Made by a program: the position numbers and the translations under genes. Shown here in pieces: positions 11,354 to 13,564 of a DNA stretch of 32,243 nucleotides (position 1 is its first letter; each line of letters begins with the position of its first letter). The DNA is from Gammaproteobacteria bacterium (GTDB lineage: Bacteria > Pseudomonadota > Gammaproteobacteria > Xanthomonadales > Wenzhouxiangellaceae). The stretch lies in the NCBI GenBank assembly GCA_018819105.1, contig JAHJQV010000049.1, positions 1-32,243 on the forward strand. Direction: 5' to 3'. The notes under the pieces were generated by a model. That model saw nothing but the letters and a program-made list of their open reading frames with translations. It searched no databases and was not told the origin of the DNA.

Positions 11354-13564
11354 ATGAACAGTTGTCGCCATCCATCATTGCATGGTCATATTGATCCCCA
11401 GCTGCAATGCCAAGCGCTGTTCAGGCAGCCGGCAGCCTGGCTGTTATACAGTCTTGTTCTGTTGTTCTGCATCACCTCATCTACACCAGGTCTAGCCCAG
11501 AACAGCCCCACAAATGACTCCGCCCTGCAGCAACATGCCGCAGAAATGAAGTCCGGTGCCACCGATGTGGCCGCACTGGTGGCACAGGGTGAGCAGGTCT
11601 ATGGCCGCGTCTGCGCCGCCTGCCATCAGCCCAACGGGCAGGGCCTGTCCGGAGCCTTTCCTCCGGTCGCCGATTCCGACTATCTGCAGGCCGATCCGCT
11701 GCGCGCGGTGGATCATGTGCTGCATGGACTGTCCGGCAAGATCGAGGTCAATGGCAAGACCTACAACGCGGTGATGCCGCCGATGGCATACCTCAGTGAT
11801 GAAGACATTGCTGCAGTCATGACCTATGTGCTGCAAAGCTGGAATGATGGTGGTGACATTCAGCCGACTCAGGTCGCAGCGATTCGCGATGGTGCCGATG
11901 CCAAGGTCTCTGAACCGGCCTCGCATCCTGGTGCCGAGCCGGGCAATTTGGCCTATCAGGGGGCACCGTCGGGCATTGATCCAGATGCTGCCAAGGACAT
12001 GATCACTTCGGAAGGCCCGCCCATGACCAGCGATGAGTTCGCCTTCGCCAAGAAAACCTTCTTCGAACGCTGTGCCGGCTGTCACGGTGTGCTGCGCAAA
12101 GGCGCCACCGGCAAACCGCTGACCACCGACATCACGCGTGAAAAAGGCACCGCCTATCTGGAATCGCTGATCAATTACGGCTCGCCTGCCGGTATGCCCA
12201 ATTGGGGCACCTCCGGCGATCTGACCGCCGAGCAGGTCAACATCATGGCGCGTTACCTGCAGCATGAGCCGCCCGAGCCTCCGGAATGGGGCATGGCGGA
12301 GATGCGTGACAGCTGGAAGATCATGGTGCCGCCGGAAGACCGGCCCAGCGCCCCGCAGCACGATCGCAACATTGACAATTTCTTTGCCGTGACCCTGCGC
12401 GATGCCGGTCAGGTGGCGATGATTGATGGCGACAGCAAGGAGATCATCACGCTGCTCAACACCGGTTACGCCGTGCACATCTCGCGGCCATCGGCGTCCA
12501 CCCGTTATGTGTTTACCATCGGTCGCGATGCCAAGATCGATATGATCGACCTGTGGATGGATCCACCGGCGATTGTGGCTGAAATCAAAATCGGGCTGGA
12601 AGCACGCTCGGTGGAAACCTCCAAGTACAAGGGCTATGAGGACCAATACGCCATTGCCGGTGCCTACTGGCCGCCGCAGTACGTGATCATGGACGGCAAA
12701 ACACTGGAGCCCAAACAGATCGTTTCCACCCGCGGCATGACCGTGGACACCCAGGAGTTCCACCCGGAACCGCGCGTGGCCGCCATTGTTGCCTCGCACG
12801 AGCATCCCGAGTTCATCGTCAACGTCAAGGAAACCGGCAAGATTCTGCTGGTCAACTACGAGGACATCGACAATCTCACAGTCACCACCATCGGTGCCGC
12901 ACGCTTTCTGCATGATGGCGGTTGGGACGTGACCGGTCGCTATTTCCTTACCGCTGCCAACCAGTCCGACAAGATTGCCGTGGTCGATTCCCGTGACCGC
13001 GAACTGGAAGCCCTGATTGATGCCACCAAGATTCCGCATCCGGGTCGTGGTGCCAACTTTGTGGATCCCGAGTTCGGCCCGGTCTGGGTCACCAGTGCAC
13101 TGGGCAGCGATGAAATCACCTTCATCGGCACCGATCCCGAAGGTCATCCCGAACAGGCCTGGAAAGTGGTGCGTGTGCTGCATGGCCAGGGTGGCGGTTC
13201 GCTGTTTGTGAAGACCCATCACAAGTCCAGCAATCTTTGGGTGGACACCCCGCTGCACCCGGATGAGAGCATCTCCCAGAGTGTGGCGGTGTATGACATC
13301 AATAATCTGGACGCAGGCTTTGAGGTGCTGCCGATTGCCGAGTGGGCCAATCTGGGTGAGGGCGCAAAACGTGTCGTGCACCCGGAATACAACCAGGCCG
13401 GCGATGAAGTGTGGTTCTCGGTCTGGAATGGCAAGGACCAGCGTTCGGCCATCGTCATCGTCGACGACAAGACGCGCAAGCTGAAACACGTGATCGACGA
13501 TCCCCGCATCGTCACCCCTACCGGCAAGTTCAACGTCTACAACACCGTCCACGACGTTTACTGA
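11354..13564 (+). CDS. nirS: Cytochrome cd1 nitrite reductase NirS with extra N-terminal cytochrome c domain
   Basis: Periplasmic reduction of nitrite to NO using heme c and heme d1. A signal peptide with a long n-region precedes the hydrophobic [15 protein letters not shown] and a cleavage site near GLAQ (about residue 49). An additional cytochrome c domain follows: CAACH at residues 87-91 and a methionine-rich [13 protein letters not shown]. After a linker comes the normal NirS part: heme c domain (CAGCH at 240-244, [11 protein letters not shown]), then the d1 propeller from about residue 315. His375 in YAVHISR is the expected proximal d1 ligand; conserved distal histidines lie in the [11 protein letters not shown] and FLHDGGWD regions. 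At 736 aa it is about 170 aa longer than typical NirS. AGGAG lies 7 nt before the ATG. Confidence 0.95.

Follow-up and report, generated by a model that had tools for sequence, protein, structure and literature searches.

The genome examined here lacks the heme d1 biosynthesis genes that we searched for and carries, beside its nirS gene, a dedicated receptor of the heme type, and this combination is the finding worth following. Heme d1 is the cofactor of the nitrite reductase NirS. In the explanation that we consider probable, heme d1 or a late precursor of it would be imported via the receptor into the periplasm and fill apo-NirS, while an extra cytochrome c domain of this NirS, here called C1, would replace the missing donor cytochromes.

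The window, which is the whole stretch of 32,243 nucleotides analyzed, was compared with three sets of data. The first comprises 81 genomes, namely the window's own and 80 relatives of and around its order (labelled G); the second consists of the best 80 of 578 loci most similar to the window NirS on GTDB contigs (labelled L); and the third contains 369 genomes over the class, 74 of them with a strong Cytochrom_D1 match. The sets overlap, as L095 is G075, L114 is G006, L121 is G010, L118 is G032, L125 is G061 and L130 is G459.

The nirS gene and its product

The nirS gene (11354–13564, + strand) encodes a protein of 736 amino acids with the architecture C1-C2-d1, according to its reading frame, Pfam and PDB comparison. 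The additional domain C1 occupies residues 76–163 (11579–11842), the best stretch for Cytochrom_C (whole-protein E 8.8e-18), and C2, the ordinary NirS cytochrome c domain, occupies residues 233–302 (12050–12259), the best stretch for Cytochrome_CBB3 (E 2.1e-22). Their heme motifs are CAACH at residues 87–91 (11612–11626) and CAGCH at residues 240–244 (12071–12085), and both precede a single d1-heme propeller (12368–13546), located by Pfam and by alignment to Pseudomonas aeruginosa NirS and complete in its Cytochrom_D1 match (residues 339–731, E 2.5e-148). The earlier note had described a NirS with two c-type heme motifs ahead of one propeller, and the motif positions, the Pfam domains and the orthologs bear this out; position 12060, where the note ended its stretch, falls just inside C2. 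Residues 1 to about 50 look by eye like a signal peptide, and the linker of residues 181–216 has a pLDDT below 50 in the predicted structure.

Residues 200–736 match P. aeruginosa NirS end to end in the PDB search (E 2.3e-271). His375, His520 and His562 align with positions 182, 327 and 369 of that protein, and Tyr201, just upstream of the propeller, aligns with its position 10, all of which we take to be active-site residues. Across 46 aligned NirS proteins the three histidines are invariant and Tyr201 is more than 90% conserved. The protein shows the features of the NirS family: a c domain joined to a d1 propeller, both the proximal and the distal histidines of the active site, and an equivalent of Tyr10. 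Judged by sequence, the protein is a cytochrome cd1 nitrite reductase, and it is predicted to bind heme d1 and to produce NO from nitrite.

A frameshift, an assembly chimera or chance can be dismissed as the origin of the fusion, because an ortholog of 85% identity in a genome of the same genus and proteins from 28 more genomes of the order show this architecture with no stop codon inside, so that 29 other genomes share the frame.

Kinship and distribution of the additional domain

When residues 51–179 were searched against the PDB, the best matches were the C-terminal cytochromes of copper nitrite reductases (E about 3e-32; 2zoo, 1e-26), followed by Thermus c552 (E 7e-18), and no NirC or NirM chain was present among the matches at E <= 0.001. 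The strongest matches to C1 alone in related genomes are likewise NirK fusions with a C-terminal cytochrome, at 54–58% identity. A tree of 94 domains places 41 of 42 C1 domains together with all 10 NirK cytochromes in a single set, with moderate support from few columns (bootstrap 82, SH-aLRT 81); the remaining C1, from Yanghanlia caeni (L136), lies just outside, and NirC, NirM, NorC and C2 are also placed outside. The nearest relative of C1 that we found is thus the C-terminal cytochrome of three-domain NirK, as the earlier note had supposed in bringing C1 closer to the NirK-associated cytochrome than to NirC: the PDB search with C1 alone, the C1-only matches and the tree agree. An assignment of C1 as NirC or NirM was rejected on the tree and the PDB matches. 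Since the NirK domains occupy two places within the C1 set, the domain may have been exchanged between NirK and NirS more than once, and the transfer may have run either way. Three genomes, G008, G049 and G074, each encode both C1-NirS and a NirK with a C-terminal cytochrome.

Full C1-NirS is present in 30 of the 81 genomes. Of the 74 genomes in the class-wide sample whose Cytochrom_D1 match is strong, 5 have just one such match, in a frame longer than 700 amino acids. C1 was also found in 41 of the best 80 of 578 loci, a count that is not a frequency, and the hosts there include Marinicella, Wenzhouxiangella, Woeseiaceae, Arenimonas, Aquimonas and others, as well as, outside the order, Pseudidiomarina, Kangiella, an Alcaligenaceae strain and the acidobacterium Acanthopleuribacter pedis. 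A similar C1-C2-NirS was described in 2022 and called unique to Chloroflexi, in the passages drawn on here (Schwartz et al. 2022, PMC8756737); for the architecture this uniqueness fails. The rarity that the earlier note expected of such a NirS therefore stands for the class (5 of 74) and not for the order (30 of 81), the Chloroflexi protein being published as well.

Two further observations concern the window's family and its relatives. A second NirS type (G002, G016; L089, L090) has 46–49% identity and no C1; in G002 and G016 it is likewise accompanied by a receptor and not by d1 genes, and in G016 the gene after it encodes a NapC/NirT-type cytochrome that bears an ethylbenzene-dehydrogenase-like domain. 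G012, taken as Wenzhouxiangella marina, holds C1-NirS.

Absence of heme d1 biosynthesis genes

The window genome, 98.7% complete, has one Cytochrom_D1 match, which is nirS itself, and therefore has neither NirF nor NirN. No match to NirDLGH (PF17805) was found in it, and for NirJ, which reportedly acts in d1 synthesis according to recent biochemistry, there were weak, partial radical-SAM matches only. As far as these gene families tell, the host cannot make heme d1 by the known route. What the missing genes characterise is the pathway of the host, not the enzyme family NirS.

The same holds for most of its relatives. NirS is present in 35 of the 81 genomes. In 33 of these 35, Cytochrom_D1 gave no further match as strong as that of NirF or NirN, PF17805 gave none at all, and no NirJ candidate exceeded the cut-off; five of the 33 have weak extra Cytochrom_D1 matches below 43 bits. 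The two exceptions are G048, with all d1 parts, and G058, a fragmented assembly with NirN and NirJ. Incomplete assembly was ruled out as the cause, given the 33 of 35 genomes and the single-contig assemblies G012, G016 and G022 among the 33; weak searches were ruled out too, as the same searches found the genes in G048 and in five of five d1-positive control genomes. The searches covered the NirF/NirN and NirDLGH families, and in the 81 genomes alone the NirJ family, with NirE outside their range.

Moreover, a genome-wide search for Cytochrom_D1 and PF17805 only was made for 50 of the best 80 loci (33 of the 41 with C1, 12 without C1 or flanking d1 genes, and 5 controls). NirF, NirN and NirDLGH are missing from 32 of the 33 C1-NirS genomes tested in this way. 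The one genome with d1 genes is that of L099, and the flanks fetched for it contain no TonB receptor. The genome of L132 has a second Cytochrom_D1 match of 217 bits, which was rejected as NirF or NirN, since it is 36% identical to the window NirS and 24% to NirN and NirF. It belongs to a divergent NirS-like protein with three heme c motifs (L208:1291–3762, − strand), in which two distal d1-pocket histidines seem by eye to be lost.

Recent biochemical work has NirF acting with NirC in d1 synthesis (PMC13168839). The absence of d1 genes as such may partly be known already, because Pold et al. 2024 report, in the part of their account used here, that NirS clades differ in d1-gene presence (PMC10999283).

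A TonB-dependent receptor adjoining nirS

Directly upstream of nirS lies the gene of a TonB-dependent receptor of the heme/hemoglobin (PhuR-like) family (8995–11235, + strand), the proposed importer of heme d1, assigned by profile and PDB searches. It passes the curated cut-offs of TIGR01786 (327.5 against 323.75 bits) and TIGR01785 (327.0 against 316.85 bits), both plug and barrel are present (PF07715, PF00593), and its nearest PDB match is PhuR (8the, E 5.8e-83).

Counting the window's own, 30 of the 33 d1-less genomes have a homolog of this receptor no more than 3 kb from nirS. In G051 a receptor fragment stands beside nirS at the contig edge, which brings the d1-less genomes with an adjoining receptor of the heme-uptake family to 31 of 33; the receptor ortholog of G069 is on a different contig from nirS, and the nirS contig of G042, 4.7 kb long, is without one. 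The link has survived rearrangements, because the receptor may be upstream, downstream or divergent relative to nirS. Beside nirS in G048 and G058, the two genomes with d1 genes, no TonB receptor was found.

Among the best 80 of 578 loci, 53 have no d1 genes flanking nirS, and 40 of these show a TonB receptor frame at a distance of up to 3 kb; of the 27 that do have them, none shows such a frame (Fisher p 1.6e-11, shared ancestry ignored). Six of the 13 misses have d1 genes elsewhere in the genome (L099, L143, L155, L156, L171, L173), L104 has a receptor fragment at the contig edge, the contig of L140 ends at nirS, and the d1 status of L159 and L164 is ambiguous. L109, with C1-NirS, has only a divergent TonB receptor about 3.0 kb from nirS. 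L127 (A. pedis) and L128 are real exceptions, in which C1-NirS occurs without an adjacent receptor and without the d1 genes that were searched for; the nearest TonB-like frame of L127 is 7.2 kb from nirS. In this acidobacterium C1-NirS adjoins norCBQ-like genes.

The receptors are not always of the window's type. Those of L113 and L123 are TonB receptors of other types, and four loci that lack both C1 and d1 genes (Thiothrix caldifontis, Marinobacter sp. 1-4A, Haliea salexigens and the metagenome-assembled genome L139) each have, within 3 kb of nirS, a TonB receptor of another type, with 25–27% identity to the nearest member of the window's receptor group. Three congeners of Marinobacter sp. 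1-4A among the best 80 of 578 loci carry d1 genes. In strain 1-4A itself, tonB-exbD-exbD-exbB adjoins the nirS-linked receptor (L168:13778–16152), possibly as a dedicated energy unit.

The receptor together with missing d1 genes recurs on several NirS branches. On the NirS tree d1 presence changes five times, and a tree-aware test over supported branches offers only 3 independent pairs, all with d1 absence going with the receptor, a number too small to reach significance (p 0.25). Its labels were set by hand, L139 was counted as receptor-positive from a contig-end fragment, and no d1 label was given to L140, L159, L164 or the eight C1 loci outside the genome-wide search.

In the class sample of 369 genomes, where the two best first-look receptor candidates per genome were scored, the receptor is adjacent in all four genomes, besides the window's own, that have a single NirS-sized Cytochrom_D1 match (G295, G453, G459, G469); three of these are new, G459 being the genome of L130. 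G446, with one NirF-sized match, and G493, with a single weak one, were left out of the count of NirS genomes. The receptor is adjacent in 0 of the 67 genomes with two or more Cytochrom_D1 matches, some of which may hold no NirS, and one of them, G438, has a distant relative far away. No report on heme d1 uptake or on a TonB receptor with nirS was found in the open-licence PMC literature, preprints aside.

Ligand site of the linked receptors

The nirS-linked receptors can be told from the other PhuR-type receptors of the order. In a tree of 86 receptors, which omits L109 and L113, 18 unlinked PhuR-type receptors of the order form one group (SH-aLRT 99), nine of them from genomes without NirS and nine being paralogs in NirS genomes. 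All nirS-linked receptors lie outside this group, and so do those of G069 and G051.

Gly418-Glu419 of the window receptor (10246–10251, + strand) is Gly-Glu in 65 of 65 linked-type rows, which represent 60 distinct sequences, and Pro plus Asp or Glu in 18 of 18 unlinked receptors. In the FRAP-NPDL loop, the window receptor has Leu525 (10567–10569, + strand) instead of a Tyr that PhuR presumably uses as a heme ligand; this Tyr is present in all 18 unlinked receptors and in 27 of the 65 linked-type rows. Pro521 of the same loop occurs in 61 of the 65. Out of sample, three new linked receptors fit the signature, and the loop proline is missing from all five new unlinked receptors, of which one has Gly-Glu (L204, from a d1-positive genome). 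The two-residue signature for linked receptors was downgraded, as the L204 receptor breaks it. With these changes, the linked receptors resemble heme receptors whose ligand site has been altered. In the source passage used, PhuR is stated to bind heme via His and Tyr ligands (PMC12670364).

Neighbouring genes in the window

The receptor gene and nirS belong to a run on one strand that continues with a porin-like gene, norC, norB, norQ, norD and nnrS. The porin-like outer membrane protein is of the Alginate_exp family by Pfam (13583–14857, + strand); 19 of the 33 d1-less genomes have its gene in the sequence fetched around nirS, as does H. salexigens, and the protein could be a nitrite channel or part of the uptake system. 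The genes norC, norB, norQ and norD (14947–19597, + strand), for nitric oxide reductase and its maturation, were assigned from family matches and recall, and the nnrS-family gene (19617–20801, + strand) from a family match. Upstream of the receptor are a RegB/PrrB-like sensor kinase and a RegA/PrrA-like regulator (6834–8835, + strand), with matches below the curated cut-offs.

Of the window ORFs scanned, none matched a heme ABC transporter or heme oxygenase family. A second TonB-dependent receptor (4650–6818, − strand) and an adjoining PepSY_TM-like protein (3067–4623, − strand) look like a separate uptake pair. Three frames (20858–22213, − strand; 29823–30491, + strand; 30515–32131, + strand) matched no Pfam or NCBIfam family under the thresholds applied.

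Proposed import of heme d1 and its alternatives

NirS matures and is loaded in the periplasm. We propose that lysed or leaking denitrifiers would release heme d1 or a late precursor such as dihydro-heme d1, and that the nirS-linked receptor would carry it straight into the periplasm, where NirS folds. There it would drop into apo-NirS without NirF or NirN. C1 would then accept electrons from the respiratory chain and hand them to heme c, standing in as a built-in donor for donors of the NirM/NirC type. The NapC/NirT-type cytochrome that follows the nirS of G016, without C1 and without d1 genes, fits systems that bring their own donor. More broadly, we lean towards the view that a bacterial group of many families reduces nitrite with heme d1 as a public good from other denitrifiers, pirated via a dedicated TonB-dependent receptor and loaded in the periplasm, and that d1 synthesis was lost and a receptor gained on several occasions, with the type of receptor differing among them.

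One cultured strain bears directly on this explanation. Wenzhouxiangella AB-CW3 (G016) has a NirS without C1 and no d1 genes. According to the portion of its description drawn on here (PMC7691419), it is the only Wenzhouxiangella named as encoding and expressing Nap, NirS and NosZ; it grows slowly on nitrate, faster on N2O and not on nitrite, shows no nitrite build-up on nitrate, and in pure culture reduces nitrite at a much lower rate, with no mention in that portion of added d1. The failure on nitrite fits a cofactor-starved enzyme, while the residual activity does not, unless another enzyme is responsible. Nitrite reduction by AB-CW3 without import would weaken the import model.

This slow nitrite reduction in pure culture (PMC7691419, as far as drawn on here) speaks for an unrecognised, non-homologous route to d1, in which the receptor would import iron or heme b needed for denitrification, and such a route would also escape our searches, which covered the NirF/NirN, NirDLGH and NirJ families and leave NirE and novel enzymes outside. 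We nevertheless think it unlikely. It needs several known gene families to be replaced at once and on several branches, and it sits poorly with the receptor as the most regular nirS neighbour among the gene clusters compared, the next being the porin-like gene at 19 of 33, and with the lack of a TonB receptor beside nirS in the 27 d1-flanked loci (best 80 of 578) as well as in G048 and G058. Still more doubtful is an ordinary heme or iron receptor co-regulated with denitrification, the missing d1 genes being a separate matter, as in a decaying or moonlighting NirS. The receptor does pass the cut-offs of general heme receptor models and has relatives in nine NirS-less genomes of the order; however, the linked receptors stand outside the unlinked group with changed loop residues, unlinked paralogs coexist with them in nine NirS genomes, and NirS does not look decayed, because its catalytic residues are kept. 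That the d1 pocket of NirS holds another tetrapyrrole, for example heme b, supplied through the receptor, would agree with a receptor of the heme type and with absent d1 genes, but it is very improbable, as the propeller is 73–74% identical to those of the d1-making relatives G048 and G058, with the three pocket histidines unchanged, and one C1-NirS genome (L099) has d1 genes.

The import of heme d1, if true, would have several consequences. The nirS gene is a standard marker of denitrification, and genome-based predictions of stand-alone nitrite reducers would be wrong for the d1-dependent nirS group. Pure-culture tests of d1-less nirS strains would give false negatives, and heme d1 would be an exchanged nutrient in anoxic communities. 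The receptor would also be an outer membrane transporter for a dioxo-isobacteriochlorin, and to our knowledge none is known.

Comparison with known systems

The C1-C2-NirS of Chloroflexi (PMC8756737) also has an extra cytochrome c domain N-terminal to the NirS c domain and propeller, a likeness that is one of architecture. The passages of that account drawn on here report no other denitrification-specific genes in its neighbourhoods and make no mention of receptor linkage (PMC8756737). The hosts differ as well, being Chloroflexi there and Gammaproteobacteria, an Alcaligenaceae strain and one member of the Acidobacteriota here. Three-domain NirK (PDB 3ziy, 2zoo) shares with our protein the cytochrome that is the nearest relative of C1 found, yet it bears it on the C-terminus of a copper enzyme, whereas C1 is on the N-terminus of a heme d1 enzyme.

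Canonical nir clusters have the gene order nirSMCFDLGHJEN. Those of Stutzerimonas, Halomonas and most Marinobacter loci in the best 80 of 578 have the same NirS core and active site, but they carry d1 genes, and in none of the 27 loci of this kind does a TonB receptor lie within 3 kb of nirS. PhuR (PDB 8the) belongs to the same receptor family as the window receptor, which differs in its changed heme-loop residues, in its linkage to nirS and in being without heme transport partners among the window ORFs scanned. A parallel in principle would be the TonB receptor PqqU (YncD) of Escherichia coli, which supplies PQQ to the periplasmic apo-glucose dehydrogenase of a cell that cannot make PQQ. The scheme proposed here would likewise feed an external cofactor to a periplasmic apo-enzyme, with another cofactor and another receptor family, so that the likeness is one of analogy, not of membership.
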